IMG/VR virus record: IMGVR_UViG_3300045999_002963
Span: 1-20,924 of that record
Direction: 5' to 3' (one strand)
Source: a virus
DNA: 20,924 nucleotides
Every line of letters starts with the position of its first letter. Within the stretch, counting starts at the first letter, position 1. Below are positions 401 through 20,924 of the stretch, in pieces. Under the pieces are notes generated by a model. That model did not search any database, was not told the DNA's origin, and worked only from the letters and a program-made list of their open reading frames with translations. The position numbers and the translations under genes are program-made.

Positions 401-401
401 C

Positions 402-1118: not shown

Positions 1119-1141
1119 ACACTCTTTTAAAACCTTTTGTT

Positions 1142-1471: not shown

Positions 1472-1522
1472 GAAATACTTAGTAGTTGATAATAACTAAC
1501 AAACTAAAATAAACACATAATA

Positions 1523-2281: not shown

Positions 2282-2291
2282 GAGTTAAATT

Positions 2292-2335: not shown

Positions 2336-2349
2336 CTCATAATATAGCT

Positions 2350-3964: not shown

Positions 3965-3977
3965 GTTGGGGTTTTTT
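3953..3977 (+). terminator. Rho-independent terminator overlapping the nuclease stop codon
   Basis: CCTCAAC (3954-3960) pairs with GTTGGGG (3965-3971), with one G-T wobble and an extra outer A-T pair, around a GTAA loop (3961-3964). Six T follow (3972-3977), then G and four more T. The nuclease TAA (3962-3964) is in the loop. The structure would end the primase/nuclease transcript before rIIA, so rIIA may need its own promoter or read-through. Confidence 0.8.
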
Positions 3978-4003
3978 GTTTTATACACCTAGCAATCTAT
4001 CCA

Positions 4004-6724
4004 ATGAGCATAAAGACTATTGGGAGCAACGTAACTTCTAACTCAAAGGGGTTAGAAAAGCGAATAAATAAAGGGGCAGAAAGATTAGTATTTGACATCT
4101 TACAATCTTCACAGTACTCTACCCCTATATCCTCTAGTGTCAGAGAGCTAACTACAAATGCTCTAGATTCACAGAGAGAGAAAGAGATGGCTATTGAGAT
4201 TCTAACAGGGAATAAATCAATAGAGGATTACTATATTAAACGAGATGGGGAGCAATATCAGGACTCTAACTTTGACCCATCGTACTACAATCTAGAGTAT
4301 TTAGACAACACTCAATCTGATGTAATTCTCAAATACCATGAGAATGAAGGAGTTGGGTTCTGTGATGAGTTTATAGTCGAAGACTATGGAGTTGGGATTG
4401 GGGGTAAGCGTCTTATTGGGATGTCTGAGCTTGGATATTCTACAAAGAGAAATACCTCTGAGAACTTTGGAGCATTCGGACTAGGAAGCAAAGTTGCTTT
4501 ATCTACAGGAGTAGACTTCTATGTAGTAGAAAGTGCATATAATGGGAAGTATGTAAAGTTTCAATGCTTTGCATACAAGACTGTATTCACTATCTCTAAA
4601 TGGGAGGCAGATGGGGAGATGAATCTTGAAGGGAATACGATTTACTACAAAAACTACTTAGGGAATAATTTCACTAGAGTATCTTTTGGGGTAAAAAGAC
4701 ATAATAGATCTGCATTTCAAGATGCAGTTTCTGATCAACTAACTTATGTGCAAGGAGTTAAGTTCTTTATTAGACGAGAGAATAATACATCTTATTTTGA
4801 AGCTGACTTCTATAAAGAGCCTATCTATAACTCTAAGAATATCTTAGTATCTGAAGGGACTTACTATGGGAGACCTCATATCGTGATTGTAAAATCCGAA
4901 GATTCCTCAACAGGAATCAATTATGGGCATGTACAGTTTAGAGAGCTTGAGATGGAGCAGCTGTTTGGGGCTGTTGGGTTAAAATGCCCAATGCGTCAAG
5001 CATATATAGATGAAAATAACAACGAAGTTGTAATTCAAGAAGGTGTTGAAGTAACCCCCAGCCGTGAGAAAGTCATTTGGAATGACAACACAAAGAGATT
5101 CGTTGAGAATGTCATAGACAAAGCTCATATTGAAATCTCAGAGTTAGTTAATTCAGAGCTAGGGAATGAGGCAGACATCTTAGAATGGTTAAAGAAGTGC
5201 TCTGTAACTATAAATTCTGGGAATAGAGTTGAAGAGATAACAGAAGAAACCACATCTATTGCACTCTTAGGAAAGCTATCTAGATTCTTGAATGTAGATA
5301 AGATCAAACCTAAATTCTTTCTAGATAAATCTATTGAGTATAAAGGAACCTCTAATCTGCTTCCTTATTATACTATCACAAAGATGTTTATACCCTTTGG
5401 GTTAAGTACAATTAAAGTAAGTGATGTATATTATTGGAATCACATAAATCTAGATAACTTATACTTTCTCCCATCTAACAGAAATGCTACCAAAGATTGG
5501 TATTTGCTAAATGAGATTAAAACTGGGGAGAAAGCTATCTATATCTTAAGAGAGAATACTTCTAAGCTGAATGGGGTTAATCCATTCATGCTATTAAATG
5601 AAACATTCATAGCAACAAGAGCATTAGAAGATAAGATTCTAAACTACATCAAGCTATCTAAGTACTACAAATCTTACGAAGATGTAGTAGTCCCCAGCGA
5701 CTTTAAACTCCCAACTGGAGCTACAGCATCTTTCGTAAGTATCCTTACTCCTGAGCAAATGCGGGAGATGAATGGGGAGATTGTAGCATTCACATTACGA
5801 GAAGATCAAAGTAGGTATAGCAAAGAACTAGTCTTTGATAAGATTCAGCCTATTCAAAAGGATTTCCTTACTTCTTCTACTCCTACATATTATGGATTAC
5901 GAGATGACAAGGAGGAACTTTATGTTGCATATAAAATGCTTGAGAACATAAATCCTGTCTATTCTTCTTCTAGAACCTATGGGTATATTCGAGCATTTTA
6001 TTGGGATAAACCTCCTGTAAGGTTGGAGAAATCTGATGGTTTAAAGCTAATAGAGCGAAGTTCGATAAAACATAAAGCTCAGATTATAAAGATCAGTGAA
6101 AAAACAGAGAATATTGTACATGCAAACTCCAACATAAAGCACGTATCTAACTTATTCTGGGAAGACAATGGAGATGGGACTATGGTCCTTCACCCTTTAC
6201 TAAAGTTTTACTTTACAAGAGAATACTCTTCTATGGTAAGAGACTGGGTATCAGTTTATATCTCCAAGATTATCCCAGAATTTACAGATATATGCTTTGT
6301 GATTACTAGTTTGTTTGAACAAAGCCCACAATTTAGCTACGATGAAGTGCGGAACTCTGTCTTATTGGATAATCTAACTAAGTTTGCAAAGAGGAAATAC
6401 TTCTTGGATAAATCTCTCCCGGACTATAAAGAACAATTGCAAGGGATATGTGAGGAGATATTCAAATTGGATATAAAAGACATTGACATTTTCTACGATG
6501 ATATACTGGAAATCAGTACCTTTGTATGTAATTTCGCAGAAGGGATTAACTCTTTCGTAGGAAGATTGCATGTAAATAATGACATCAGTTCCGCATTTCT
6601 CACTGAGCTAGAATCATATCTAAAGATGAGGGGTAAATTAGATATGGAAATCCCAAGTTGTCTCCCCTCAGCAGTCGCTATTATTCACGAAAACCTAATC
6701 CCTCAATATAAAGACAATGATTGA
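4004..6724 (+). CDS. rIIA: rIIA-like protein (GHKL-type ATPase)
   Basis: The N-terminus is a GHKL (Hsp90/gyrase-type) ATP-binding domain: N-box SSSVRELTTNALDS (43-56) with E48, N52 and D55, G1 box EDYGVGIGG with D127-x-G129-x-G131, and G2 box GAFGLGSK (156-163). The remaining 700 or so residues show no motif I can name. Immediate coupling to an rIIB-like gene (8-nt overlap) fits the T4 rIIA-rIIB operon. In T4 the pair lets phage grow on cells carrying the lambda Rex exclusion system; the proteins are membrane-associated and their chemistry is unresolved. At 906 aa this is longer than T4 rIIA (about 725). The gene follows a terminator by 26 nt. Glycine codons are strongly skewed: about 29 GGG, 15 GGA, 4 GGT and no GGC. 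Confidence 0.82.
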   Translation: MSIKTIGSNVTSNSKGLEKRINKGAERLVFDILQSSQYSTPISSSVRELTTNALDSQREKEMAIEILTGNKSIEDYYIKRDGEQYQDSNFDPSYYNLEYLDNTQSDVILKYHENEGVGFCDEFIVEDYGVGIGGKRLIGMSELGYSTKRNTSENFGAFGLGSKVALSTGVDFYVVESAYNGKYVKFQCFAYKTVFTISKWEADGEMNLEGNTIYYKNYLGNNFTRVSFGVKRHNRSAFQDAVSDQLTYVQGVKFFIRRENNTSYFEADFYKEPIYNSKNILVSEGTYYGRPHIVIVKSEDSSTGINYGHVQFRELEMEQLFGAVGLKCPMRQAYIDENNNEVVIQEGVEVTPSREKVIWNDNTKRFVENVIDKAHIEISELVNSELGNEADILEWLKKCSVTINSGNRVEEITEETTSIALLGKLSRFLNVDKIKPKFFLDKSIEYKGTSNLLPYYTITKMFIPFGLSTIKVSDVYYWNHINLDNLYFLPSNRNATKDWYLLNEIKTGEKAIYILRENTSKLNGVNPFMLLNETFIATRALEDKILNYIKLSKYYKSYEDVVVPSDFKLPTGATASFVSILTPEQMREMNGEIVAFTLREDQSRYSKELVFDKIQPIQKDFLTSSTPTYYGLRDDKEELYVAYKMLENINPVYSSSRTYGYIRAFYWDKPPVRLEKSDGLKLIERSSIKHKAQIIKISEKTENIVHANSNIKHVSNLFWEDNGDGTMVLHPLLKFYFTREYSSMVRDWVSVYISKIIPEFTDICFVITSLFEQSPQFSYDEVRNSVLLDNLTKFAKRKYFLDKSLPDYKEQLQGICEEIFKLDIKDIDIFYDDILEISTFVCNFAEGINSFVGRLHVNNDISSAFLTELESYLKMRGKLDMEIPSCLPSAVAIIHENLIPQYKDND

Positions 6725-7952
6725 CATCAATGTTATTGACAACTGCATCTCTGGCTCTGTGGGGGAAACTCCCTTTATGGTAGAGTATGATGCAAATGTC
6801 TATCAGGAACTCAGCTACATTGCTGACCTAGCTAACAATGCTAACACAAAAGAAGAGTATCAGATTCACACTGATAAGTTCTTCTCAGTGATTAACAGAG
6901 TGAAGGATTATGCAAAAATTGCAGAAACCAAATGTCCTTACATTAAAGTAAACAATGTAACTGGGCAATTCTTTCTCACCTATGAGGGAGAGGTATCTAA
7001 AATTCCAATGCCTACAGAGCTTGTAGATCGTATCTACAACTCTATGGATAGCGGAGCAGATTTCATGCCCTTGGTGAAGCTGTGGATGCGTTGGTTGCGT
7101 AATCCAGTACTGAAAGCAAAGATGGAGAATGGGACAGGGAAAGAATTCTCTGATAGATTCTTCAACTTTGTAAACATGAAGTATGTGCACCCCGAGTTGT
7201 TGACTGACCTTATGGATAATCATGGTCTGAGTTTAGATGCAGCTAGAAAGCGAGCTACTATCTATCAGATCAAGATTACAAAAGAGGGTCTCTTAAATGG
7301 GTACAAGGTTTCTAGAGAGATCATGCATATGTTTGATCCTGAATCAGGAGAATCTATACCCCGCTATAAGAGAACCTTTGATGTAAATACAGGGCAAATT
7401 GCTTCTGAAGGTTTACCTGAGTTTGTAGAAGATAGAATCTTTGAGCCTGCTGTAATGGGTTCAAGTGGAGATCCTTTTACTTGCGAAGGAGTCAATGGAT
7501 TCTCTGACCCAGGTCATTTTATCAAAGTAGGTTGTTTACACTCCCTAAAGTCTTGGGATAAAGTAAACACAGATGATCACCGTTCTTGTGTCCCAGGTTT
7601 ACACATCGGGGGATTGTATTATATCTCTGGATATAGTGGGGAAATCCACAACATATTCGTAGATCCAATGCACGTTGGGGCTGTTCCTGACGACGAGACA
7701 GGAGCTATTCGTTGTTTGCAGTACTTTGTACATTCAAGTCTTGCCGGAGTCAATGGAAGCATCTATCACTCTTCTACCTATGCTGCTATGACAGACTTAG
7801 AGTGGGAAGAAATGAGGAAGGATGTAGTCATTGAGCTCAACAATCATTTAGGGAATGCTCTTACTTCTAGACTGTCTGATTTCAAAGACGAATTAGAAGA
7901 TGATGAGTATGGTGATTATGAAGATGGGAGTTATGATGATATGGATAACTAA
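6717..7952 (+). CDS. rIIB: rIIB-like protein
   Basis: This 411-aa protein overlaps rIIA by 8 nt (ATG 6717-6719, rIIA TGA 6722-6724). The C-terminal half has the hallmark rIIB region: a CVPGLHIGGLYYISGY segment followed by IHNIFVDPMHVGAVPDD and the RCLQYFVH strand, resembling the T4 rIIB HVG-type core. The first 180 residues look helical and include FMPLVKLWMRWLRNPVLKAKM. The last 20 or so residues are very acidic (DELEDDEYGDYEDGSYDD), a tail I do not associate with T4 rIIB, which is shorter (about 312 aa). It presumably works with rIIA in protecting the infection, by analogy with T4 exclusion of Rex. Assignment as rIIB is strong from motif plus operon context; the biochemical role is unknown. 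Confidence 0.82.
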   Translation: MIDINVIDNCISGSVGETPFMVEYDANVYQELSYIADLANNANTKEEYQIHTDKFFSVINRVKDYAKIAETKCPYIKVNNVTGQFFLTYEGEVSKIPMPTELVDRIYNSMDSGADFMPLVKLWMRWLRNPVLKAKMENGTGKEFSDRFFNFVNMKYVHPELLTDLMDNHGLSLDAARKRATIYQIKITKEGLLNGYKVSREIMHMFDPESGESIPRYKRTFDVNTGQIASEGLPEFVEDRIFEPAVMGSSGDPFTCEGVNGFSDPGHFIKVGCLHSLKSWDKVNTDDHRSCVPGLHIGGLYYISGYSGEIHNIFVDPMHVGAVPDDETGAIRCLQYFVHSSLAGVNGSIYHSSTYAAMTDLEWEEMRKDVVIELNNHLGNALTSRLSDFKDELEDDEYGDYEDGSYDDMDN

Positions 7953-7989
7953 ATCGCTGTGATACCCTAATAAAGTAAGTCACAGTGAT
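7953..7989 (+). promoter_or_regulatory. Inverted repeat enclosing the exonuclease start codon
   Basis: ATCGCTGTGA (7953-7962) pairs with TCACAGTGAT (7980-7989) over 10 bp with one G-T wobble, around a 17-nt loop. The GTG start (7985-7987) lies in the 3' arm, so the folded RNA would hide it. Either a translation-control hairpin or a protein-binding operator could explain it. Confidence 0.5.
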
Positions 7990-8782
7990 AGAGCAAGGAA
8001 AACTAGACAATGTTTGTCTTATAGATGGAGATTCCTTGTTGTACTATGAAATGGATAAAAGCTCTCTTGAGGAGGCCTGCGAAGGTCTCTCCAAGAGGCT
8101 TTCCCATATATTAGAGCAATGCGATACCAACAGGTATGTAGGGTTTCTAACAGAAGGGAGATGTTTCAGGTACAACGTGGATTATCAGTATAAAGCCAAA
8201 CGTAAAAGAAGGGGAGACCGTCCCATTATTTTCCCTTCTATGGTTGAATATCTAAAGCAGGAGTGGGGATTTACAGCCTTTGATGGGTTAGAAGCTGATG
8301 ATCTAGTCAGCTATTATTCTAACTCCTTGGTAGAGTATAAACTCGCAACCCCAGTTATATGTTCCCCTGATAAAGATGTTCTATATCAATGTGCAGGGAC
8401 GCACTACAATTATCGCACTACTCAGTTTATTGAAACTACTGAAGATCAAGCTACTAGTTTTCTTTGGAAACAAGTATTGATGGGAGATAGTACAGACAAC
8501 ATACCTGGACTTCCAGGAGTTGGGGAGAAGACTGCAGACAATTGGTTAAAAGGACGCACTAAAGACTTTGAAGTCTTTGCACTCAAACAATATGTAGACA
8601 AGTTTGGGTCAATAGAAGGAGTGCGTAAATTCTATCAATCATTTGCTCTAGTAAAACTCTTAAAGACCGATGCAGATATTGAATGGTTCTTTAAGATAAA
8701 CTTTCTCCCAAAGTCCCCAGAAATACGAGAACGTAAGTTTAGTTCTGAAGATGTATCTTCACAGACAAATCTTTGGGACTAA
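7985..8782 (+). CDS. 5'-3' exonuclease / flap endonuclease (T5 exonuclease, Pol I N-domain family)
   Basis: All metal-ligand motifs of the family are present in order: LIDGDSLLY with D14, YKAKRKRRGDRP (the arch or YKANR region), EADDLV (E103, D105, D106), SPDKDV (D129, D131) and MGDSTDNIPG (D168, D171). The helix-hairpin-helix-type LPGVGEKTA (176-184), which grips DNA, follows. The enzyme removes 5' flaps and RNA primers and can act in recombination as a 5' resection enzyme. The GTG start is favoured because an in-frame TAA sits nine bases upstream and D14 must be retained; no ATG lies between. The stop overlaps the next ATG as TAATG (8780-8784). The 265-aa length suits a stand-alone phage exonuclease. 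Confidence 0.88.
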   Translation: MIEQGKLDNVCLIDGDSLLYYEMDKSSLEEACEGLSKRLSHILEQCDTNRYVGFLTEGRCFRYNVDYQYKAKRKRRGDRPIIFPSMVEYLKQEWGFTAFDGLEADDLVSYYSNSLVEYKLATPVICSPDKDVLYQCAGTHYNYRTTQFIETTEDQATSFLWKQVLMGDSTDNIPGLPGVGEKTADNWLKGRTKDFEVFALKQYVDKFGSIEGVRKFYQSFALVKLLKTDADIEWFFKINFLPKSPEIRERKFSSEDVSSQTNLWD

Positions 8783-9552
8783 TGAAAGATTTATTTCACG
8801 TATCCATAGTTGTTGTGAACGCTAGAATGGCACGAGTCGTTGGAACTGTGTCTATGTTCATGCAAAATCGTAATGATACAGATATTGTATCATTAGAATA
8901 TAATGACTATAAAATTACAGTAGGGGATACAGTGAGAGCTGGAAAAATACCATACAAAGTAAACTATATCAAACCAGTAATAACTCAACAAGGATTAATA
9001 GGGTATGATATAATAGTTTGTAATGTAAACAATACTAGCATATTTGCCTTTCCGTTTATTGGGGGTAATCGTAGACTAATGCTTTGGGATAATCTGTTCA
9101 TGAATGCATTTATTGCAGTTCCTGATCATCCTAAGTGCATTGCATTATTGTATAGATTTTCTGGGAGTATCTTATTTACAAAGTTTGAATCTGCATTATG
9201 CTCATTCAGAGCCTTTGAACATAGATATGATCCAGATCCCTATCATGTATTGTTTGTCTTCAATGTCCCTCAAGAAGCAGAAGCATCCTATGAGCACTTT
9301 ATAAATGGGAGATATTCGCAGATTGATGATTTGTGGAAACTAAAGATTCTAGACTTTCATGGTTTTGACATGGATGGGCATACTGGGCAGATACTGTTCA
9401 GAGACTCTCGTCTTCGTGAAAAGATTGAAAACAAGCTAGATATTACTTTGGGAGAAGAAACAGAACTTCATAGCATTATCGACCGCTCTGTAGAGGAATT
9501 AGATTTTAGCTTTTATGCCCCAAGCGCAAAAGCTGCTATAGATAAGATGTAA
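8782..9552 (+). CDS. Conserved-looking protein of unknown function in the exonuclease-UDG cassette
   Basis: The start is set at ATG 8782, which overlaps the exonuclease stop (TAATG); a TTG nine bases earlier is less likely. The 256-aa product has a beta-rich, hydrophobic first third (VSIVVVNARMARVVGTVSMF). A central segment, ALLYRFSGSILFTKFESAL, is followed by PYHVLFVFNVPQEAEASYEHF and WKLKILDFHGFD. The C-terminal portion is helical and charged (SRLREKIENKLDI). No signal peptide, clear membrane helix, nucleotide-binding loop or nuclease motif is visible, and I cannot name a family. Its TAA overlaps the UDG ATG, so it is translationally locked between an exonuclease and a glycosylase. This makes a DNA replication or repair role plausible but unproven. 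Confidence 0.7.
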   Translation: MKDLFHVSIVVVNARMARVVGTVSMFMQNRNDTDIVSLEYNDYKITVGDTVRAGKIPYKVNYIKPVITQQGLIGYDIIVCNVNNTSIFAFPFIGGNRRLMLWDNLFMNAFIAVPDHPKCIALLYRFSGSILFTKFESALCSFRAFEHRYDPDPYHVLFVFNVPQEAEASYEHFINGRYSQIDDLWKLKILDFHGFDMDGHTGQILFRDSRLREKIENKLDITLGEETELHSIIDRSVEELDFSFYAPSAKAAIDKM

Positions 9553-10253
9553 TGACCGATAGACTTAGAAATCAACTAGGAGATTGGGGGGACGTATTGT
9601 CCCCCTTTATCTCTAACCCTTCTTTTGATCATATACGAACTCAATTACGAGTAGAGAAATCCAAAACTATCGTATACCCCTCTGATGATAAGATATTTAA
9701 AGCTTTTGAGCTCTGTCAATTTAAAGATCTCAAAGTTGTAATCCTTGGACAGGATCCATATCACAGAGGTGAAGCTATAGGAGTATGTTTTGGGATTGAT
9801 AAAGAGAAGTCAAAGATACCCCCAAGTCTTAGAGTCATTGTAAAAGAACTGCAATCTCAATACCCAGACATAGACATATCTAAGTTTGATTATTCTTTGT
9901 ATTCATGGGCTCAACAAGGAGTGCTTCTCTTAAATACATACTTAACAGTTTCTAAGAACTCTCCAGGTTCCCACCAAAATATGTGGGCATGGTGGACAGC
10001 AGATGTCCTCAAAGAAATCTGTTTAAGGAAATGTGATGATGTGATATTCATCCTTTGGGGGAAACACGCTCAGAGCTTTAGCTACCTTATTCCTACCTGT
10101 AATATCCTAAAGAGTGCTCACCCAGCTGCAGAAGCATATGGAGGAGGAGGATTCTTTGGGAATAATCACTTTCTAGAAGTAAATAAATTACTCTCTAGCA
10201 AATCTATCCCTGAAATAAATTGGGGATTACATAGTAACTTGTCCAATCTTTAA
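9552..10253 (+). CDS. ung: Uracil-DNA glycosylase, family 1
   Basis: All family 1 motifs are present: the water-activating GQDPYH (66-71, catalytic D68), IGVCFGI as the uracil-pocket segment, IPPSLRVIVKEL as the Pro-rich loop, LLLNTYLTV with the uracil-specific Asn, and SAHPAAEAY near 186-194. The last is the minor-groove His loop, HPA in place of the usual HPS. It is followed by GFFGNNHF, as in Escherichia coli Ung. The enzyme excises uracil from DNA. At 233 aa it is of normal length. Its ATG overlaps the preceding stop (TAATG), completing a coupled cassette with the exonuclease. A strong terminator-like hairpin lies inside the first 60 bases of the coding region. Confidence 0.93.
   Translation: MTDRLRNQLGDWGDVLSPFISNPSFDHIRTQLRVEKSKTIVYPSDDKIFKAFELCQFKDLKVVILGQDPYHRGEAIGVCFGIDKEKSKIPPSLRVIVKELQSQYPDIDISKFDYSLYSWAQQGVLLLNTYLTVSKNSPGSHQNMWAWWTADVLKEICLRKCDDVIFILWGKHAQSFSYLIPTCNILKSAHPAAEAYGGGGFFGNNHFLEVNKLLSSKSIPEINWGLHSNLSNL
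9579..9614 (+). promoter_or_regulatory. Terminator-like hairpin inside the 5' end of the UDG gene
   Basis: GGGGGAC (9587-9593) pairs perfectly with GTCCCCC (9599-9605) around GTATT, followed by TTTATCT. An outer helix, GGAGAT (9579-9584) with ATCTCT (9609-9614), adds six pairs including one wobble. The core arms and the following TTTA or TTTTA are the same as in the convergent terminator at 10617-10640. It may attenuate transcription or block ribosomes early in the gene. Confidence 0.5.
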
Positions 10254-10269
10254 TCAAACACAAATAACT
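10252..10269 (+). promoter_or_regulatory. Second copy of the A-rich leader
   Basis: This leader differs from the one at 402-419 at only two of 18 positions and has the same spacing to the ATG. There is no Shine-Dalgarno sequence. Conservation across 9.8 kb suggests a functional initiation element. Confidence 0.4.
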
Positions 10270-10611
10270 ATGAGCGACGGAATTTGGTTTCAGCAACATA
10301 CTGGTCCTGAGGAGTTTACATACTCCACTCGTAAAAACTACAATGACCCCACAGTGCAACAAGTAAGGCAGATTGCAGATGAAATAGTAGAGATGCTTAA
10401 TGACAAGAACTCTGCTTATGGAAACTCTGCTCTCAATCCTCTGAGATTATTCTCTACTTCTAGTGCTCTTGAGGGACTATGTGTACGTATTGACGACAAG
10501 ATCAGTAGAATAGCTAACTCTGGGATTACAGATAAGACTGAAGATTCTGTAAAAGATCTTATAGGGTATCTGTTATTATTGCAGGTTGCTTTAAGTAAGA
10601 GCCGTAGATAA
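10270..10611 (+). CDS. DUF6378-like small helical phage protein
   Basis: This 113-aa protein resembles the phage DUF6378 domain: a KNSAYGNSALNPLRLF motif (46-61), RIDDKISRI (about 73-81) and EDSVKDLIGYLLLL (about 91-104). The E-x2-K and D-spaced helices recall all-alpha nucleotide pyrophosphohydrolases such as MazG, which would suit a nucleotide-pool role next to UDG, but this is inference only. It is the last gene of the plus-strand block. Its TAA is followed five bases later by the stem of the bidirectional terminator. Its leader is nearly identical to that of the Sak4-like gene. Confidence 0.7.
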   Translation: MSDGIWFQQHTGPEEFTYSTRKNYNDPTVQQVRQIADEIVEMLNDKNSAYGNSALNPLRLFSTSSALEGLCVRIDDKISRIANSGITDKTEDSVKDLIGYLLLLQVALSKSRR

Positions 10612-10644: not shown

Positions 10645-13600
10645 TTACTTCTCGTAGAATTTAGCTAGATTCTCTGGATTGTTTGTTTTAGATACCCCTG
10701 AGAATCCGGGTAGTATATCAGTTAACTCTTTCACTACTTTCAAATCTCCTTTCTCATAAGGGCCTGACTTTCTTTGGTAATATATCTCTTTTTCATCTAT
10801 AGGCCACCCAAGATTATACATACCTAAGTTTTTAGCTGATACTGCAAGTTCCCAAGCATTTTTAACTGGGCGAATGGTAGCAGTAGGAGATTCAGCAAGT
10901 CTTATAAACTCTTCAATATTCCTAAAGGCTACAAGTTCACTACGCAGTCTCAAAGCTTGGTAGACAGTGAATGATGCCCAGTATGGGTTCTTCTCATCGT
11001 CATCATCGAACATACCTTTTATAGTGTTTGCAAGCATCAAGGCTATAGTAGAAACAGCCATTTCTACCCCTGCTCGAATCAGATTCTTTTTCTCTGATTC
11101 TGATAAATCCCCAAATGTCTTTTTAAGATCTCTAGTTTGAATGAGATTAGACATTGCATTTATCATGGTATTATAATACCCATTTGTAAGCTCCCCGCTC
11201 TCTACATCTATGTGAGCCCCATCCCCAAATCCAAATCTTCTTCTCAAACCGGGGACAAAATAACTTCTAAAAAGAAGTAACAACCTAGCTCCAGCACGTC
11301 TCTGTGCAGCTACTACGTCTACACTTCCACGTAACTGGTTGAGTGTCTTAGACATAGACGATACTCTTAAAGAGAACTTAGCTAAATTGAAATTAGCTAC
11401 CCGTGGGTCAATGATCCACCTGCCCTTAGAATCTTGTATAAATACATCGTACAAGTTGGCATCACTCCCATCTTCATTCTTTATCACATTCCCATCCTTG
11501 TCTTTCAGCTGCCCCTCCATTTCAAAGGCCATAGCTAGGACCTTTTGACCCATCAACTGTATATCTGCAGCCTTCTGAGCAAATGTTAAAGTTGATACAC
11601 TTGCTGCTTTTTTAGCTGCACTCCCTGTTAAGTTATTAAAAGCTTGAGATCCTTCTTGTAAAGCATTAGTTAATTCCATAAACGCTCCAATCTTATTCCC
11701 TTTAGTTAATTTTCCAGATGCAGTTTCAGCAAGATTACCTCCTAAAGTTCCCATGTGCATCTTAGCTTTCCCAAGATTCTTAGCTGTAAAGTATCCCCCA
11801 GCTATCCCCTCTTGTATTGACACAGTATTATCCATCAACCACTGGTTAGCTGCCTGCGGGATGTTCAATCCAAGTGCTGTAATAGCTGTTAAACTGCTTA
11901 TAGATGCAGATAGTTTTTCTGGGGACATCCCAAGAAATGTAGCAGAAGCATCAGATGCAGATTGTCTGTCATAGAACACACTCTCCAACCACTCATTTAC
12001 TTTTTTAAGATCGTTAGAGTCTCCTCCTTGTGGAGATCTAGCATATAGCTTATGCAATCCATACTTAGATAAAATGCTGTTAGTCTGCAGATCTCCATTG
12101 GGAAGTAAGTTAACCTCCATACGGTTTTCTAATGCAGACCTCATAACATTAACTACCCCATGTAATTCAGATTTACTTCTAAACCTGTTAGCCATATCAT
12201 CAAACTTAATGATACTAGATGTAATGTCTCTAGATATCAAAGCTTGATCTAGTGTCCCTACAAAGTGCATAGGGATTGCTCTGAGTCTCTCCTTGTTCTT
12301 TCCTATTAATTCCCCAAATTCTGTATCTGTTTCTTGATGCAAGAAGTTATTTTGAAAGAATCCTTTTACTGATTTGGATACCCCATCTTCAAGGAACTCA
12401 TCTTGAGCAGATTTACGAATAGATGGGGCTACATATGAGAAGTCATCCCAAGTATTCTTAAACTGTGGAGTACCCCCAATCTTCTTTAATTGAGCTGTTT
12501 TGTATTTATCAAGAAGTACATCATAGTACTCTCTAGCCTCTGCAGGCATCTGAGTATACTTAGGATTTAAATAGGTATCATTAGGAACTGCCAGATTCCC
12601 CTTAAAGACTCCCCCAGAGAAGACTCCCTCAATCTCATACTGCAGCCCATTGATTGCTGCCCATATCTGGGCTTTTTCAGTTTCAGGAACTGCCTGAGTA
12701 AGAACATCAAATTCTAAAGCTTCTTTCTTTCTAATTAAAGCATCAAGCTGACTTTGAGCACCTTCAACTGGGATGGTATTCTGTCCCCACCAAGAGTTAA
12801 CTTCTTCTAAATAGCTTTTCCCATCTGAAGTTTTAAAGTACGCATCTAGATCTTTCCCCTTTACTCCTTCAGGATAGTTGTTTCTAGCTCTAGCTTCTGC
12901 GTAGAATTTATCTTTAGCAGCATAGAACTTGCTTACATCGTACTGCTGTACAAATGATAGCACTTCTGTAGATGAATACTTTCCAGTCTCATCATCTCTC
13001 CTATATATGGTTATAGTCTCTAAGATATCTTCATAGAGCTTAGCAGGATTATCTTCCCCAACCCCTTTCCAATTCACAAACTTTCTGTATGGATCTGCAA
13101 GATCATACTTTGTATTTATAGTATCCTGATATGCCCCAAACAGTTTAGTCTTTACAGCATTAGCAAATAGCTGTATTGATGTGCTTCTGCTATAAACAAC
13201 GGGATCTAACCATAAAGAGAACCAGCTAGCATCTGTATGAGATGCTTTCATCTCTGCTAAGATAGCCTCTCTCCCAATCTTCTTCTCTTCTAACTGCTTG
13301 ATATTCAGAGCTAATACTGCATCTCTCCCAGCAGCTCTAGCCTTTAAGTATCTAACGTCAAACCTATTGATATCGACTACTACTCCAGCTGTTTTAATTC
13401 TCTCAATCTTAGCATCTAGTTGCTTATTGATATCCATAGGAGCATACTCAAGGAGATAGTCCACATGTATAGGGAGTACAGCGTCTAGGAATCTACTATC
13501 AATCTCTTTCATGCGTCTCTCAGACTCTCTGACGTAGTATAGAATATCTTCCCCAGCAGCAATCTCATCAGACATATTAGAGTTGAGAATAGACTCTACT

Positions 13601-14445
13601 TGGTACCCTAAAAGAGTGACAATAGACTTACTGCTACTCCCAGAATAAAAAGAGTCAATAGTTTGCTTGAGATCAGATATCTTTCTAAGAACTCTTTCTC
13701 TCTCAACATTACTTACTTTACCCTTAGCATTAAGAGCTTCGTACTTCTCCTCTAATACTTTTAACTGTGCCTGTCCTTTAACAGACATATCGTGCAGATA
13801 ATGCACAAAGTCATAGTAAGAATTTATAGATTCACTCTTCTTTTTAATTCTGCTAAGCATAGCACGTATCCTATTCTGCTGTGCTTTATTCTGATCTGAC
13901 GGGGGTTCTTCTTTAAGCTTACGAAGATTGTTCTCAAGATTCTCTATGATCAATCCTGTTAACTCCTCTCCTTGCTGTCTAGTTTTTTCTACTTCTTTGG
14001 CTAATTTCCCAGATCCCTCCATAGCAGCAAACTCCTCTGTAACATCTCCTAAGATATCAGACTCTTCTACTACTCTATTTGCAGTTGTAGAGAACTCATA
14101 TACATCAGGAGCAATCTTATTAATATTTTTTAAGACATTGTAATCAACTATCAATTTGATACTTGATCCCACTCTATCAGTTTTTAGAAGAAGATCATCC
14201 GCCCCAAATGCTTGTGCTGCTACAGCATTTATAGAGTCAATCTGCTTAAGCGCCTGTCGCTGAGAACGTCTAGGGTTTATGTACATATGAGATGCACCCT
14301 CTACTCGTATCCCCAACCCATCTTGTAAGATGATCTCCTCAATAGACTCTAGCATTCTAGATCCTATCGGAGTATCCTCAACATATTGAAATACGTTTGT
14401 AACAAATTCATCACCCACTCCATTGACAGTATATACACAAGCCAT
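10645..14445 (-). CDS. Giant probable virion/ejected protein downstream of the virion RNA polymerase
   Basis: This 1266-aa protein has no named enzymatic motif that I can see. An N-terminal region (1-110) is mixed alpha/beta, and about 140-275 is heptad-rich and highly charged, likely coiled coil (KEEPPSDQNKAQQNRIRAML, LEEKYEALNAKGKVSNVERE). A long helical middle follows. Ala/Gly/Ser-rich hydrophobic stretches occur near 845-865 (SLTAITALGLNIPQAANQWL) and at 1127-1146 (VEMAVSTIALMLANTIKGMF, then DDDDEKN), the latter a possible membrane-crossing helix. The LLLLFRSYFVPGLRRRFGFG segment followed by NGYYNTM resembles a conserved patch in giant crAss-like phage proteins encoded next to the polymerase. 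Some of these are polymerase-associated or capsid cargo proteins. It is co-oriented with the polymerase gene, 30 nt downstream, without an intervening terminator. Ejection with the genome is inferred. Confidence 0.65.
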   Translation of the reverse strand: MACVYTVNGVGDEFVTNVFQYVEDTPIGSRMLESIEEIILQDGLGIRVEGASHMYINPRRSQRQALKQIDSINAVAAQAFGADDLLLKTDRVGSSIKLIVDYNVLKNINKIAPDVYEFSTTANRVVEESDILGDVTEEFAAMEGSGKLAKEVEKTRQQGEELTGLIIENLENNLRKLKEEPPSDQNKAQQNRIRAMLSRIKKKSESINSYYDFVHYLHDMSVKGQAQLKVLEEKYEALNAKGKVSNVERERVLRKISDLKQTIDSFYSGSSSKSIVTLLGYQVESILNSNMSDEIAAGEDILYYVRESERRMKEIDSRFLDAVLPIHVDYLLEYAPMDINKQLDAKIERIKTAGVVVDINRFDVRYLKARAAGRDAVLALNIKQLEEKKIGREAILAEMKASHTDASWFSLWLDPVVYSRSTSIQLFANAVKTKLFGAYQDTINTKYDLADPYRKFVNWKGVGEDNPAKLYEDILETITIYRRDDETGKYSSTEVLSFVQQYDVSKFYAAKDKFYAEARARNNYPEGVKGKDLDAYFKTSDGKSYLEEVNSWWGQNTIPVEGAQSQLDALIRKKEALEFDVLTQAVPETEKAQIWAAINGLQYEIEGVFSGGVFKGNLAVPNDTYLNPKYTQMPAEAREYYDVLLDKYKTAQLKKIGGTPQFKNTWDDFSYVAPSIRKSAQDEFLEDGVSKSVKGFFQNNFLHQETDTEFGELIGKNKERLRAIPMHFVGTLDQALISRDITSSIIKFDDMANRFRSKSELHGVVNVMRSALENRMEVNLLPNGDLQTNSILSKYGLHKLYARSPQGGDSNDLKKVNEWLESVFYDRQSASDASATFLGMSPEKLSASISSLTAITALGLNIPQAANQWLMDNTVSIQEGIAGGYFTAKNLGKAKMHMGTLGGNLAETASGKLTKGNKIGAFMELTNALQEGSQAFNNLTGSAAKKAASVSTLTFAQKAADIQLMGQKVLAMAFEMEGQLKDKDGNVIKNEDGSDANLYDVFIQDSKGRWIIDPRVANFNLAKFSLRVSSMSKTLNQLRGSVDVVAAQRRAGARLLLLFRSYFVPGLRRRFGFGDGAHIDVESGELTNGYYNTMINAMSNLIQTRDLKKTFGDLSESEKKNLIRAGVEMAVSTIALMLANTIKGMFDDDDEKNPYWASFTVYQALRLRSELVAFRNIEEFIRLAESPTATIRPVKNAWELAVSAKNLGMYNLGWPIDEKEIYYQRKSGPYEKGDLKVVKELTDILPGFSGVSKTNNPENLAKFYEK
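12022..12037 (-). repeat. 16-nt exact repeat, copy 1 (within the 1266-aa gene)
   Basis: On the minus strand this reads ATCTCCACAAGGAGGA and encodes SPQGG. The identical 16-mer, in the same frame, occurs in the polymerase gene at 18682-18697. It contains AAGGAGG and a CTCC-ACAA-GGAG mini-hairpin. Confidence 0.6.
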
Positions 14446-14475: not shown

Positions 14476-17400
14476 TTAAAATCTGCAATTGACTCCATAC
14501 TTGTTCAATCCGTCATTGTCAGAGGAGTATATCTTAGAGATAGCAGACTGCTCTAAATAGCTTTTAAATTGATTATATAATTCTCCAGAAAATTTCTGCA
14601 TACCCTCCCTCCCAGTTACTATTGTCCCCCCATTTCCAGGGATATTCATCTCTACAAGTCTATTCTTAATCCCTTTAGGAGTTACTTTAATATAGTAAGA
14701 ATTATTATTATCTCCCCCAATTCTTACATAGAGTTCTGTAGCATCCATAGTTCCTTTTCTATTTTTAGGAACTCTTTTATATCCCTTATAGAACATTGCA
14801 GTTTCTGTAACTACTGAAGGAATAGAATATATTTTATATTCAGTTCCTTCATATACTTTTGTGTTTTTTGTTAATTTTAATCTAGATTCTTTCTGAATAA
14901 GTCCAAAACTCAACCCAAAGTTTCTAACAAATTCTACAACAAATTCTGGGTCTGTAAACCTGTTAATATCATTTCTAGAATTATTGATAGAGTTTCTAAA
15001 CTCATCTAATATTCCAAGTGCTTCAAACATTTCTGGGCGAATAAACTTGTAGAAAGAACTCTTACTTGGGAGGAAAGCACTAGATATAAGTGCATACTGC
15101 ATCAAAGAGTATCCAAGTTCTGCAATTTCAAGATTCTGCTTTTCTCTTTCAACTTTATCTTGGAGTGGGGAAGTATACCTCCCAGGATTTGAGATCAATA
15201 GCATAAATCCTTCAGAGATTCTATTACTCAAATCAGCATCCACTCGCCCTTTAGGTTTGAACTCTAACTTAACAATTCTACTTTCTGGGCTTTTGGTGGA
15301 TGTATTATCTAAAGAATCAATAAGTGCGTTTCCTGAAAGCGCAGGGTATTTCTTAATAGCATCATTCAATTGCCCTAATATACTCCTGCTCCATATCTTA
15401 TTGTCAACCAATTTTTTAGGATCATTCCCAGTAAATTGTCCTTCGGGATTTTTACTCAAAAACAGTTCATTGAACTTAGTCCCAGGAGCTGACATAAGAG
15501 AGTACAGCAATGCTCTATTGATAGCTCTATGCTGAGATGCAGTTAAATCCTCAAGCATAAGAATATTCTTCAAGTACTCTTTGAACATAAGAACAGAGTC
15601 TGATGGTCCAAAGAATAGAGGCTTAGCAGCATTGAATACTACATTGAAGTATTCTTGGAATGCCTGTGTTGGGAGGAATGCATCTCCTTCTAAGAACTGC
15701 TGTAAGTCTTCTGCACTAACTAAAGGATTAGATTGTGCTTTAATTACATTAATTGTATCTGCAATTACTTGCATTTCTCCTAAGTCATTTACAGCATCTA
15801 ATGTATCTGGAGATAAAGCTTTATAAATTTTACGTAATTCTTTCCCAGAATAATAAGATATGATAAAGTTCCTAAACAAACTCTTTGCTAACTCACTGGT
15901 TGTATCTTGATTAGCAATGACAGTTTCAAGGTCTTCTTGACTCATAGGATCCATAGGTCCATTGACTCTATCATTAGCATTTTGAAGCAAATCGCGATGT
16001 AGTCCTAATTCTTTTATCATATCTTTAAATACTTGATAAGGACCCTCTGCGCTGGTATTTACTCTTCTTGTAAATTCCTTAACTAAAGGTTGCATTCTAA
16101 ATGCAATAACCCCAGCCTCAGGAACACCCATTGATGCTAAGTGAATAGTGGCATTAGCTGTTAAACCTGTATCATTTGTTCTTTCTTGTAATGGGTTTTC
16201 TTGTCCCCCAACATCAAGTGAAGCAGATAAGTGAGAAGTAAATACTTTATTCACTCGTTCTCCAGTAACAGCAGATCTATTTCGAATGATGTATAGTTCA
16301 GATCGCACTCCATCCTGCACCCAAGTAACCTTAGCACTTTGATTTAATCGCAACCCTCTTGTCCCATCTCCAAGATTTCCATGAACAGCAACTGAGAATC
16401 CAGAGTCAGCATTTGCATACTGCCCAACAAGACCTGCAGCTGTCATGAACTTATTGTACATCTTAATATCTAAGAGAGGATCATCAAAGGCATTAGAGCC
16501 AAGATCTGCATTCTCCATAATATTTAATCTATCAGCAATTTCCTTATACTCTTTAGATTCTACCCCAGACAGTACCTCTTCTAAGTGCTCAAGGTTCTGA
16601 GATACAGCTACCTGTGTGTAAAATAACAAGTTATTAAGCTGCGCTTCATCTAAGCTTTCGTAATATTCTAAAGGCTGATTTGCAAGATCGGTTATATTAA
16701 TGTTGGGGAAAGCTATATTCCCATCAGCATCTATATCTTGCATAATAACATAGAGTTTATCCCAGTCAAAGTCGGAACCTGTTACTACTGTAAAGTTTGC
16801 AGGAACAATAATGCTCTTCTTATATGATTTTGGGAGAGCAATAACTGGTCTGAGAACAAGAGTTGATGCCAAAGATTGGTGTGGAATACGGTACCCAATA
16901 AGATTAAGTTTTTCTTGTATTGCAGGATCTGATAAATCAAGATCTTCCCCAACTTTAATCCCAATCTTTTCCAACACATCCTCAGATAAAGCAACTTCTA
17001 CATACAATTTATCCTCAGAAGCTGCATCAATAAACTGTAATTCTCGTAATTCTCCATTGATATGGAACTTACCCATAGCCCCAGCCTGAACAAGCTCAAC
17101 CCCAGGAACCATAATCTTGGCTACTCTAGATCTAAACAGTCCTAAGAACTGCGCTGTAAGATCTCTCTCAGTAGTTGGGAATGACACAGGAAGTCTAAAA
17201 TCATATTCGTTATTTACTTTAACGATAGCTAATTGATCTTCAAGTACAATATCAAGTTGCCCACTATTCCTCTTAGATTCAATAGTTAACTCTTTAATCT
17301 TAGAGAGCATCTTAAGCTTAGCTGTTTGTCTTTCAGCTTCAGTAGTAGCATTGATATAATCCCTAAATCCTACTTCTTCAATAGTATCCTTAAGAGTCTT

Positions 17401-20400
17401 GGTTACTTTAGCCTTGAATGCTCGACCATAGATATCAAAAAGTTGCTGCCCAGAAATATCTGTCCCACGGAATTTATATGTTCCTTGACGATTGATATTA
17501 GCCACAGCATGCTTTCTAATCTGTCTATTAAATCTAACCTGAGACTTTTCTTTTGTAGACATAACCTGAGGTTCTACAAACGATCGTCCATACTGTATAG
17601 TAGGCTCTATTCCTTGGAAGTAATTACTTTCTCCTCTTTCTTCTTTAGATCTATCAATCGTAAATACTTTTCTCTTGATTCCCTTCTTTGCTGATATAGC
17701 ATTGAACAGGTGAATAGGTTCCCCATTTGTATACTCCCCATTCATTGCTCTATACATATCCTCCATTATCGGAGATGTAGCAGCAACGTCTCTATTGAGA
17801 ACAAAGAATGCGTTCTTATCTAATTCAGATGCATATATCTTTTGACCTGCAACTTCTACAATCCCTGTATGATCGTAGAATAATTTGAATTGAGGAGTAA
17901 ACTCAAACTCCCATTTTCCCCCATTTTCATATCTCTGATACATCTCTTCATGTTCGGCAGTCCATGTAGATGGCCCAAACCCACCTTGTATCAAAGCTCT
18001 AAACATCTCAGGGCTAATAATAGCCAAAGCGTCAGTACCCTTAGCTACATTTGATCTAAAATTATTTGATATCGCTGATGCCCTCTCTTGAGACACACCT
18101 TGTTTTATGAGCTGGTCTTTATATACATCTGCAAGTTTCTCTGTAACTTCTCCTTCTGTTCCTAAGTCATTAAATGATGCTTGACCAAATGTTTCAAACA
18201 TCCCAAAGTCAGGATTAAGAGGATCAGAACCTTTAATAAATGCTCTAGATCCTGGAGTATTTAATAGTCCCCATCTCTTATATAAGTCTTCAATACTTTT
18301 AAAGTATGCGTGACTACCTCTAAATAAGCTAGTTAACTCAATTCTAGATACAATTGTATTAAATACAAAAGAATCTATGAAAGCATTAAAATCTCCTCTG
18401 TATCCTCTTTTAAGTCCTTCAGAATCTATATATGTCTCATTAAGATTGAGAGACTCTAATTTCTGCATCATTGCAGCACTGTGAGCTGAGAGAGTTTCAT
18501 TTAGATATTTCTCAACCATCTGATCAATTGCATTCCATTGAGAATCATATGTTGAAACTCTTCCCAACTCTAACATACCTAATATAAAACCAGAAAGATT
18601 AGTCCCATTAATTGTAACATCTCCTGTTCCAGAGAGTCTCATTTGTTTTATTCTATCTATATTATCGTGATATTCTTTAAATCCTCCTTGTGGAGATTCT
18701 TTAGAATCCTCATTAATTTTAGAATCTCTATTAATTCGTACAAGATCTTGTACAATAATAGCCTCAATGATTTTCCTCTTGCTCATCCCAGTATCCTTAA
18801 AGATCTCTGTGAGTTTGCTCTTATTACTAAAATCGTCAAACTTGGGAAGAGTTACATATGTTAAATTCTCTCTAGATTCCTGAGTAGGAACTTGCACTCT
18901 CATAGTACTTGTCCCATCCATCAGGAATAGATCTAAAGCCGTCTTAAGTAGACCTCTGTCTTTCAGATCTTTATATTCTTTTGCATCTGAAGCTTCATCC
19001 TCTTCTCCTCTAACAGCACTAAATTGTTGAGTTTGAATATTGAAATACCCAAACTCAGCACTTTCAAGAATCCCAAACAGTAGAGATCTATGTTCAAGAG
19101 AAGGATTGAGAGAAGCATCTTGTTCCATGTCAAGATATGTCTGAGATTTAGTCTCAGAGTTCATATCATTGACTCTATCCGTAAGAGGGGTAGGCTTATT
19201 AACTGGGTAAACTGGTTTCCCTTTTCCGTTAAGAACAGAATCTACTGTATCAGATGTATACAAATCCGCAAAGGCATTTGCTAAATAGTTAATCTGATTG
19301 ATACGTCCCATAGAATAATCAGATTTCATATCCTTTTTGGGGGCTACAAATTCAGATATTCTACCTCCAGAGAGTTTAGTTTCAAATATATCTTGTAAGA
19401 TTCCTTTGATATCTCCTTTATCTAATATTTTAGCTAGAAATTGCTGAGATTCAGCGCCTTTAGATAAAATATATTCTTCTATAATGTCTTGATTCTGCTG
19501 TTTACTATTCCCAATATTCATCCCAAGCTCCCACATAATCCGCCCCAACGCTTGAGTCTTTGCAGTTAAATTAGTTCCCTGCAGTATAGAGAAGTCTCTT
19601 TTTATATCCTCAGTTTTAGAAATTGGATTTCTAAGATTATATATATTATTTCCCTCCTCATCTTTAGTTACTGTATATACTGTAGGATTATTTTTAAACT
19701 GCTGTTCAGACTGTATATTCTGCAACCATGCAGATCTTAACTTAGATATAGAGTCTTCTTTATTAATCCCAATAACAGTTGTAGATTTCCCTAAAGCTTT
19801 TTCTGCTTTCCCATCCTTTATTACAACATCTCCCTCTGCATCTACAACATCTTCTTGCGCATAAGATTCTTCAATAATAATTAACTTAGTTTCATCAAGT
19901 CTAAATGTCTTAAAGAACTGAGCTTTTTGCGCAGTTGAGAAACGAGATAATGCTTCAACAACTGGGAGTAACTCTTCATCATATTTAGAAGCTGCAGTAA
20001 GAGCTTCTTGCATTTGCTCAAATGATGTTACGTTTTTTACTTTACTCTTTATCTTCCCCATTAATCTAGTAACAGGGATAGTAGTTTTAAATCCATACAT
20101 GTTAGGGTATGGAGATATAATATCTTGTAGAAGTCTTTTTACTTCTTGAGAGACAGTACTAGCTGGATCTACCTGCAGAGTTGCTACAGAATAGTTCTTC
20201 TCAGCCATAACAACATCATCTTCTACATCCGCTTCTGATGGCTCTTCTTCCTCATCAGGATTTTGATCTTGCTCAGCATCTGTAAGTTCAAGATCTTCTT
20301 TGACGATTTGCTCAGGCGTATATGCCTTCCCAATATTATATCCATAGGCTTTAATAGCATCAATTAAAGATGATCTAAAACCTTTTCTAATTGTTTCAGT

Positions 20401-20919
20401 TTCTGGATTGTCTTTATCTATAAGAACATCATTCCAGTTCTCGATAATACTATCTAGAGCTGTATATGTAATATCTAACTCTTCTTCAGAAAGAGTCGCT
20501 ACATTTATATTTAAAAGAGGGTTGACATACTCTTGAGATGTTTCTGGATCATACTCTGAAATATAGTCTCTGAGTTCGATAATTGCATCATAGATTAATC
20601 CTCCAGGTTGATCTGTTTTCCCAAGAAGTTCTTTTGCCCGTGTAAGCATACCTTGTTTGTTGTCGGTATGCCCACCCATCCCAGACACAAAAGCCGTAGA
20701 CAGTACATCTACAGCTTGTGTGAATCCTTTCTCGCTCCCAAAGTCATTTCTAATAGCAGAATTATCAGCTTTTAATATGACTCCTTGCTCATAGTACAAT
20801 TGAGGAACTACCCCGTCTACATTGTATTTAGCGTAGATAGCTGCTGCTCCTACTTCTCCGTGGAGTTCTACAAGTCTTTTATAGTCTGAATCTGAAAGGT
20901 TAGGGCAAAAAAGTCTCAT
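14476..20919 (-). CDS. crAss-like virion RNA polymerase (double-psi beta-barrel type)
   Basis: This 2147-aa protein carries the catalytic signature GSDFDWDKLYV, with D1383, D1385 and D1387 as the DxDxD magnesium ligands. Two-barrel RNA polymerases related to cellular beta/beta' subunits and QDE-1 share this signature. A Lys-rich FNAISAKKGIKRK segment with K1078/K1079 lies about 300 residues earlier and may mark the first barrel. The N-terminus, CPNLSDSDYKRLVELHGEVG, resembles the opening of giant proteins in this phage group. A very acidic linker lies at about 210-235 (DQNPDEEEEPSEADVEDD). The length matches phi14:2 gp66 (about 2200 aa), which is packaged and transcribes early genes in the host. 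The start is ATG 20919, five bases from the window edge, so an upstream start cannot be excluded. The whole gene reads through in the standard code. Confidence 0.85.
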   Translation of the reverse strand: MRLFCPNLSDSDYKRLVELHGEVGAAAIYAKYNVDGVVPQLYYEQGVILKADNSAIRNDFGSEKGFTQAVDVLSTAFVSGMGGHTDNKQGMLTRAKELLGKTDQPGGLIYDAIIELRDYISEYDPETSQEYVNPLLNINVATLSEEELDITYTALDSIIENWNDVLIDKDNPETETIRKGFRSSLIDAIKAYGYNIGKAYTPEQIVKEDLELTDAEQDQNPDEEEEPSEADVEDDVVMAEKNYSVATLQVDPASTVSQEVKRLLQDIISPYPNMYGFKTTIPVTRLMGKIKSKVKNVTSFEQMQEALTAASKYDEELLPVVEALSRFSTAQKAQFFKTFRLDETKLIIIEESYAQEDVVDAEGDVVIKDGKAEKALGKSTTVIGINKEDSISKLRSAWLQNIQSEQQFKNNPTVYTVTKDEEGNNIYNLRNPISKTEDIKRDFSILQGTNLTAKTQALGRIMWELGMNIGNSKQQNQDIIEEYILSKGAESQQFLAKILDKGDIKGILQDIFETKLSGGRISEFVAPKKDMKSDYSMGRINQINYLANAFADLYTSDTVDSVLNGKGKPVYPVNKPTPLTDRVNDMNSETKSQTYLDMEQDASLNPSLEHRSLLFGILESAEFGYFNIQTQQFSAVRGEEDEASDAKEYKDLKDRGLLKTALDLFLMDGTSTMRVQVPTQESRENLTYVTLPKFDDFSNKSKLTEIFKDTGMSKRKIIEAIIVQDLVRINRDSKINEDSKESPQGGFKEYHDNIDRIKQMRLSGTGDVTINGTNLSGFILGMLELGRVSTYDSQWNAIDQMVEKYLNETLSAHSAAMMQKLESLNLNETYIDSEGLKRGYRGDFNAFIDSFVFNTIVSRIELTSLFRGSHAYFKSIEDLYKRWGLLNTPGSRAFIKGSDPLNPDFGMFETFGQASFNDLGTEGEVTEKLADVYKDQLIKQGVSQERASAISNNFRSNVAKGTDALAIISPEMFRALIQGGFGPSTWTAEHEEMYQRYENGGKWEFEFTPQFKLFYDHTGIVEVAGQKIYASELDKNAFFVLNRDVAATSPIMEDMYRAMNGEYTNGEPIHLFNAISAKKGIKRKVFTIDRSKEERGESNYFQGIEPTIQYGRSFVEPQVMSTKEKSQVRFNRQIRKHAVANINRQGTYKFRGTDISGQQLFDIYGRAFKAKVTKTLKDTIEEVGFRDYINATTEAERQTAKLKMLSKIKELTIESKRNSGQLDIVLEDQLAIVKVNNEYDFRLPVSFPTTERDLTAQFLGLFRSRVAKIMVPGVELVQAGAMGKFHINGELRELQFIDAASEDKLYVEVALSEDVLEKIGIKVGEDLDLSDPAIQEKLNLIGYRIPHQSLASTLVLRPVIALPKSYKKSIIVPANFTVVTGSDFDWDKLYVIMQDIDADGNIAFPNINITDLANQPLEYYESLDEAQLNNLLFYTQVAVSQNLEHLEEVLSGVESKEYKEIADRLNIMENADLGSNAFDDPLLDIKMYNKFMTAAGLVGQYANADSGFSVAVHGNLGDGTRGLRLNQSAKVTWVQDGVRSELYIIRNRSAVTGERVNKVFTSHLSASLDVGGQENPLQERTNDTGLTANATIHLASMGVPEAGVIAFRMQPLVKEFTRRVNTSAEGPYQVFKDMIKELGLHRDLLQNANDRVNGPMDPMSQEDLETVIANQDTTSELAKSLFRNFIISYYSGKELRKIYKALSPDTLDAVNDLGEMQVIADTINVIKAQSNPLVSAEDLQQFLEGDAFLPTQAFQEYFNVVFNAAKPLFFGPSDSVLMFKEYLKNILMLEDLTASQHRAINRALLYSLMSAPGTKFNELFLSKNPEGQFTGNDPKKLVDNKIWSRSILGQLNDAIKKYPALSGNALIDSLDNTSTKSPESRIVKLEFKPKGRVDADLSNRISEGFMLLISNPGRYTSPLQDKVEREKQNLEIAELGYSLMQYALISSAFLPSKSSFYKFIRPEMFEALGILDEFRNSINNSRNDINRFTDPEFVVEFVRNFGLSFGLIQKESRLKLTKNTKVYEGTEYKIYSIPSVVTETAMFYKGYKRVPKNRKGTMDATELYVRIGGDNNNSYYIKVTPKGIKNRLVEMNIPGNGGTIVTGREGMQKFSGELYNQFKSYLEQSAISKIYSSDNDGLNKYGVNCRF
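18682..18697 (-). repeat. 16-nt exact repeat, copy 2 (within the RNA polymerase gene)
   Basis: This is identical to 12022-12037 and again encodes SPQGG with the same codons. The flanking bases extend the hairpin here (AATC on one side, GATT on the other). Confidence 0.6.
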
Positions 20920-20924
20920 TTGCA

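Follow-up and report, generated by a model that had tools for sequence, protein, structure and literature searches.

Facing terminal cysteines suggest a disulfide-linked cargo thread around a crassvirus virion RNA polymerase

Results

The window, one 20.9-kb virus contig of 20,924 nucleotides, carries a 2147-aa open reading frame on its minus strand (14476-20919, ATG start) between two neighbouring reading frames. We call the encoded protein R, for the RNA polymerase (RNAP), and its consecutive neighbours U and D, for the upstream and downstream cargo proteins. The features of the locus are these:

74..10611, plus strand: replication/early block, convergent with the genes below (DnaB-like end, Sak4-like, primase, Holliday junction resolvase, RIIA/RIIB-like, exonuclease, UDG)
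10645..14445, minus strand: D, downstream cargo protein, 1266 aa, homologue of crAss001 gp49 ("RNA-polymerase subunit"), with a single Cys at residue 3
14221..14445, minus strand: N-terminal "cap B" segment of D
14437..14439, minus strand: codon of Cys3, the sole Cys of D
14476..20919, minus strand: R, single-chain RNA polymerase, virion-packaged by analogy, 2147 aa, with Cys only at residues 5 and 2145
14485..14487, minus strand: codon of Cys2145 of R, the C-terminal junction Cys facing D, in a tail predicted to be disordered
15580..18582, minus strand: modelled polymerase core of R, residues 780-1780, with the fold of the phi14:2 virion RNAP (6VR4)
16747..16779, minus strand: GSDFDWDKLYV, residues 1381-1391, catalytic loop with the lineage-specific W1386
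16759-16773, minus strand: DFDWD of R
17683..17685, minus strand: K1079 of R, invariant lysine among 37 relatives
17815..17817, minus strand: K1035 of R, second invariant lysine among 37 relatives
20710..20919, minus strand: N-terminal "cap A" segment of R (C-P-N..., ~70 aa), common to R and D of different lineages
20905..20907, minus strand: codon of Cys5 of R, the N-terminal junction Cys facing U
20916..20924, minus strand: U, upstream cargo protein, last codons Cys-Lys-stop, overlapping the start of R as ATGA; its penultimate codon, for Cys, ends the window (20922-20924)

U is 1490 aa long, and its remainder lies beyond the window on the sister contig described below.

The window belongs to Crassvirales. 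A 67-kb sister contig (IMGVR_UViG_3300008111_001005; L002/L096-L099), 98.5% identical across the whole window, carries crassvirus TerL, portal and MCP genes, which confirms the placement that the initial annotation had drawn from the polymerase. The portal was identified by PHROG, and the tblastn matches of MCP and TerL include crAssphage and related crass-like phages; the TerL model phrog_2 missed crassviruses. Upstream of the polymerase the sister contig encodes ORFs of 967, 835 and 1490 aa, and downstream one of 1266 aa. The structural/transcription and replication blocks converge, as in Crassvirales members, and both gene order and convergence match phi14:2 gp78-gp77-gp76, which likewise runs into an early/replication block. 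In the RNAP tree, the window groups with metagenomic contigs in a well-supported clade to which none of the included reference phages belongs. The replication block holds a RIIA/RIIB-like pair (4004-7952, plus strand) and a uracil-DNA glycosylase family protein (9552-10253, plus strand; Pfam PF03167, E 4.7e-11), for which PHROGs gave only unknown function. Neither PHROGs nor Pfam yielded a significant match for D.

R is, with near certainty, a crassvirus virion RNA polymerase. Linking it to 6VR4, the virion RNAP of phi14:2, required profile comparison and fold, because that entry escaped searches of PDB sequences with one or two query sequences; phmmer of R returned nothing, and PHROGs and Pfam held no matching model. 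A tblastn search of annotated phages gave 75 records, and the matches listed were all crassviruses, mostly at genes annotated as RNA polymerase. When a profile of the window core and a 53%-identical sister was compared by hhalign with one of the phi14:2, crAss001, cr111 and cr85 RNAPs, the two aligned over 760 columns (probability 99.8, E 2.7e-28). We then modelled residues 780-1780 with AlphaFold (AF2) from 37 natural sequences, reaching a mean pLDDT of 85.9 and a pTM of 0.85. Foldseek against the PDB placed 6VR4 at the top (E 5.8e-30, prob 1.00, TMq 0.72, 1067 columns). It was the only entry to pass E 0.001, and the weak followers were almost all other RNAPs, multisubunit or two-barrel. Through the 6VR4 match, the predicted model has a single-chain fold with two double-psi barrels and not the T7-like palm fold of N4-type enzymes. 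The polymerase identity proposed at the outset is thus borne out, as is the expected structure, as far as a fold search reaches.

R is a new, divergent member of this known family, with a lineage-specific Trp. Its phi14:2 counterpart, the gp66 of the literature, is GenBank Phi14:2_gp077; the gene numbered gp066 in GenBank is unrelated, and we rejected it as the RNAP. Like R, the phi14:2 enzyme is a single chain (2180 aa) with the same fold and a DFDxD loop, but the two share only ~16% identity in structural alignment, and it reads DFDID rather than DFDWD and bears cap B rather than cap A. The phi14:2 enzyme transcribes early genes and is rifampicin-resistant (PMC10136315). By analogy with phi14:2 and crAss001, R would be packed in the capsid, ejected via the tail and refolded in the host, where it would transcribe early genes. 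The plus-strand block is its presumed target, and the proposal that R transcribes this block is reasonable by comparison with phi14:2.

The catalytic loop of R retains its three Asp. Translation reproduces GSDFDWDKLYV at residues 1381-1391 of the 2147-aa minus-strand protein, as first reported; the span originally given for the motif, 16757-16780, has the right place with boundaries a few bases off. D1383, D1385 and D1387 are invariant across 37 relatives and would bind the catalytic Mg2+. The initial annotation had paired this loop with K1078 and K1079. Both lysines are present and K1079 is invariant, but the second invariant lysine is K1035, not K1078. We take K1079 to lie on the DPBB-B side of the presumed active site, as in two-barrel RNAPs. 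A second DxDxD, at residue 1395, lacks conserved context, whereas the GSDFD-W-D context falls within the ~760-column alignment with known crassvirus RNAPs, so DFDWD is not a chance motif.

The Trp at the fourth position of the motif is confined to the window lineage in IMG/VR. At loci outside the window clade fetched with the profile, this position is Ile or Val, in a search whose pattern permitted only V, W or I there. For this reason we scanned all of IMG/VR separately with a degenerate DNA pattern for GxDFDWDK. Three contigs matched: two from the window clade and one (L092) that we rejected as a further DFDWDK polymerase, being a chance match in an unrelated small ORF. The early suggestion that the Trp might be lineage-specific therefore holds.

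Cargo proteins around the polymerase are nearly devoid of cysteine away from their junctions. Five consecutive cargo proteins of the sister genome contain 4 Cys in 6,707 aa, all at two junctions: one at the penultimate residue of U, one near each end of R and one at residue 3 of D. The replication proteins of the same genome contain about 1-2% Cys. The window repeats the pattern, with C5 and C2145 alone in R, C3 alone in D and the penultimate Cys of U, while its plus-strand genes have an ordinary content of 43 Cys in 3,385 aa (1.27%). That this pattern is a rule is not visible without related sequences.

We surveyed the R ORF and its neighbours at 64 non-redundant IMG/VR loci. In the sequences covered, U, R and D are nearly free of Cys except at their facing ends, and these terminal Cys are lost on fusion and track breaks that have moved. 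With U and R encoded separately, a Cys falls among residues 1-12 of R in 19/22 cases and among the final 4 of U in 18/18; with the two fused, the count at the start of the ORF is 0/25 (Fisher 2e-10), and the next ORF upstream lacks a C-end Cys in 23/23. At the other junction, R carries a C-terminal Cys in 50 of 51 loci with a separate D and in none of five with R-D fusion (1.6e-6), and a separate D has its Cys at residue 3-6 in 44/44. Interior Cys density is 0.028% in R ORFs. The remaining ORFs at these loci, with 1.15%, supply the background: Cys at positions 2-6 in 9/128 and in the last 4 residues in 2/128. Because related sequences are not independent, these P-values overstate the association, and independent events weigh more; the RNAP tree requires at least 5 changes of the fusion/split state (bootstrap trees give 5-6).

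Homology as well as length supports the fusion calls: in 22 of the 25 fused ORFs the N-terminal part is matched by an iterated U profile, and all R-D fusions are matched over their C-terminal part by a D profile. We discounted assembly frameshifts as an explanation for the split ORFs, since both sides carry the Cys and one gene pair of crAss001 lies on opposite strands.

The Cys pair follows the break point. In L028 and L030 the break has shifted ~540 residues upstream, into the U region, and the Cys pair is found there. Relative to a zincin motif, the break comes before it in L031, L033 and L048 and after it in crAss001. These differing positions led us to reject the idea that the Cys are relics of one ancestral split. 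In crAss001 the U gene lies on the strand opposite R and D and the rule still holds (U ends ...ALRCNS, R begins MSKRC and has a Cys 9 residues from its end, D begins MAKKC), so the rule concerns proteins and not the DNA junction.

Named phages of three families obey the rule: phi14:2, crAss001, cr111, p-crAssphage and cr4_1. In phi14:2, Cys3 and Cys2179 are the sole Cys of the polymerase, as is the terminal pair in the window R. In crAss001 (Steigviridae), gp50, gp49 and gp47 are homologous to R, D and U and have terminal Cys at the same ends; they differ from the window in the opposite strand and zincin domain of gp47, in a DFDVD loop and in one interior Cys in R. In p-crAssphage (Intestiviridae; gp44/gp45), U ends in a Cys (-2) and R starts MSC as the rule predicts, but R and D are fused, which accounts for an R without a C-terminal Cys, and interior Cys are more numerous than in the window. 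The cr110 polymerase obeys after correction of its start to a downstream MSC.

Held-out loci follow the rule as well. L114, from a Spirosoma oryzae assembly, has an R of ~3,350 aa with only two Cys, one per end, and a D starting MACTL. In L103, from a Bacteroidetes MAG, U ends FVKCS and a fused R-D starts MSQHC and has no C-terminal Cys. Exceptions are L073, which has no terminal Cys; in part L053, with a Cys-rich interior and a misassigned start; and the crAss002 RNAP, whose first Cys from the annotated start is at residue 35. The Intestiviridae and cr4_1 RNAPs contain 7-8 Cys in total.

In L114 (NZ_PVTE01000009, Spirosoma oryzae DSM 28354), R and a D-like neighbour lie on a 229-kb contig from the assembly of a bacterial isolate, possibly a related large phage, a prophage or a plasmid-like element. 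L103 (JACPEA010000007, a Bacteroidetes groundwater MAG) places a fused R-D of ~3,740 aa in a 234-kb contig and is possibly a large-genome relative.

R and D share exchangeable N-terminal caps. Their first 50-70 residues fall into types that have been exchanged between R and D across lineages, as between the R of L042 and the D of L061 (E 6.6e-10), and other R-D pairs still reach 1e-7 with the first 8 residues removed. Among held-out phages, the R of cr111 matches cap A (2.3e-9) and that of phi14:2 matches cap B (2.6e-11). A search for caps at fused U-R junctions found none; the fully fused ORF L040 has an internal cap B match that begins after the Cys position.

Tails may be matched to the caps that follow them. 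We built a profile from R tails with cap A next in line. Against it, the crAss001 and cr111 U tails, whose following cap is likewise type A, score 14 and 22 bits, and tails followed by cap B score no more than 6.6 bits. The profile does not separate other lineages, the window's included, and tail-to-cap matching is thus partly supported by sequence, with clear results from crAss001 and cr111 alone. In the window R, a weak model (10 sequences, 67 pLDDT) predicts disorder for the final 23 residues.

Discussion

We consider it probable that this crassvirus virion RNAP is the middle link of a U-R-D chain joined by disulfides between terminal Cys. The bonds themselves, read from the cysteine pattern, are rather likely: U, R and D are kept nearly Cys-free except for one Cys at each end that faces a neighbour, and the facing Cys would pair as U-S-S-R-S-S-D. 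Three separately made proteins would then exit the particle strung together N to C as a single thread, drawn through the narrow tail in order, and would come apart when the disulfides are reduced in the host cytoplasm. U-R, R-D or U-R-D fusions would substitute a peptide bond and have no Cys at that junction. A role in ordered ejection, with reduction after entry, is what we infer from this arrangement. We also lean, a little less firmly, towards a fuller version in which matched tail-cap disulfide couplings make a breakable cargo train, threaded in fixed order, for which fusion is interchangeable and has been swapped at least 5 times.

What is known of crAss001 suits such a thread. Its virions contain gp45, gp46, gp47, gp49 and gp50 as cargo, the RNAP and cargo having been found by mass spectrometry, for which both a reduced and a non-reduced sample exist, and carry many disulfides in the tail and portal vertex (PMC10172136). 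The tail has constrictions below 50 A, so the cargo must partly unfold to pass, and the RNAP-associated cargo was unresolved in cryo-EM (PMC10172136). In another system, P23-45, gp96 is also a two-barrel single-chain virion RNAP (loop DFDGD) delivered within a larger polypeptide; unlike R it is covalently fused to the tail tape measure, and it belongs to another clade of two-barrel RNAPs (PMC10770324).

The site of assembly speaks against a junction disulfide: virions are put together in a reducing, often anaerobic cytoplasm, so the bond could arise only at a late stage or with the help of a catalyst. Our literature search on crassvirus cargo cysteines and disulfides found no statement of the rule, and its one relevant item was the crAss001 tail and portal-vertex disulfides; the phi14:2 structure paper lay outside the search, so a prior mention is possible.

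Two Cys meeting at a junction could instead form a metal site or a transient adduct. We think it unlikely that the facing Cys build a shared Zn or Fe-S site or bind a shared partner, with U-R and R-D held non-covalently. The pairwise meeting of Cys at each junction would fit, and the conservation of the caps beyond the Cys would suit a structured binding site. Each side offers only one Cys, however, mostly 1-4 residues from the C-end and at positions 3-6 of the N-end, with no consistent extra Cys, and non-covalent links would probably be lost during extrusion, with partial unfolding, through a channel below 50 A (PMC10172136).

A role in ligation or processing appears quite improbable. The terminal Cys might serve polyprotein cleavage by a zincin near the U-R junction, or an intein-like or thioester ligation. 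Many fused ORFs do carry an HExxH zincin motif close to that junction, others have one at an end of U or R, and the annotation of p-crAssphage gp45 describes a fusion to a zincin protease. Yet it is the fused ORFs, which would need cleavage, that lack the Cys; the window lineage and phi14:2 have the Cys but no HExxH match in U or R; and the N-side Cys sits at residue 3-6, not residue 1. Split inteins were considered and dropped, as no split-intein domain was seen.

The zincin motif has a distribution of its own. It occurs as GTxYHEAFH near the U-R junction in many lineages (near residue 1550-1800 in the fused ORFs of L015, L016 and L020, for example), at the C-end of U in crAss001, and at the N-end of R in L031, L033 and L048.

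Very little speaks for an ordinary virion RNAP whose terminal Cys are chance leftovers, Cys being avoided only because ejected proteins unfold and refold. Avoidance itself is real and wider than crassviruses. Phage N4 ejects a giant virion RNAP with two further proteins, Cys-poor like the window cargo, and its gp50, gp51 and gp52 (L122; 3500, 644 and 150 aa) have zero Cys in 4,294 aa. But the N4 enzyme, T7-like and single-subunit rather than double-barrel, has no terminal Cys, so avoidance alone does not yield them. It also leaves unexplained the Cys at facing ends (18/18, 19/22, 50/51, 44/44), their absence from outer ends and fused junctions (0/25, 0/5) and the shift of the Cys pair along with the break point.

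Least credible is a decayed or non-catalytic homologue in which Trp has replaced a small or aliphatic residue of the catalytic loop: Trp at that position turned up in no other crassvirus RNAP in our scans, but the three Asp are all retained, as are K1035, K1079 and the remaining invariant positions, the ORF is intact, and the Trp is conserved in the 53%-identical sister. Read as an active enzyme, R widens the tolerated range of the two-barrel RNAP catalytic loop to include DFDWD.

A cysteine code that marks cargo breaks would be a specific and cheaply testable answer to how hundreds of kDa are ejected in order through a channel below 50 A. Crassviruses are the most abundant human gut viruses, and this podovirus-like ejection question concerns them directly. 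The terminal-Cys rule also helps annotators to locate the true starts and ends of giant cargo proteins. Single Cys occur near the ends of two other cargo proteins, at the penultimate residue of p-crAssphage gp47 (L116) and 8 residues from the end of crAss002 gp30 (L115), and these proteins may be tethered likewise.

Several RNAPs of the family vary outside the features discussed above. In the window clade, the VDxAKDP element that follows the catalytic loop in other crassvirus RNAPs is LDVGGQENP, longer by a 2-residue insertion (window 16190-16260, minus strand, residues ~1565-1580); the element may be part of the bridge helix or of the trigger loop. The R of L042 has ~660 additional residues ahead of the catalytic motif relative to its close relative L048, possibly an intein or a domain insertion. 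The sister-lineage virion RNAP of L003 carries near its N-terminus an ADP-ribosyltransferase-like insert (L003:859-1233, RNAP residues 136-261; ART-PolyVal, E 3.3e-6, just under the curated cut-off), which the window protein lacks and which is a possible co-injected effector domain.
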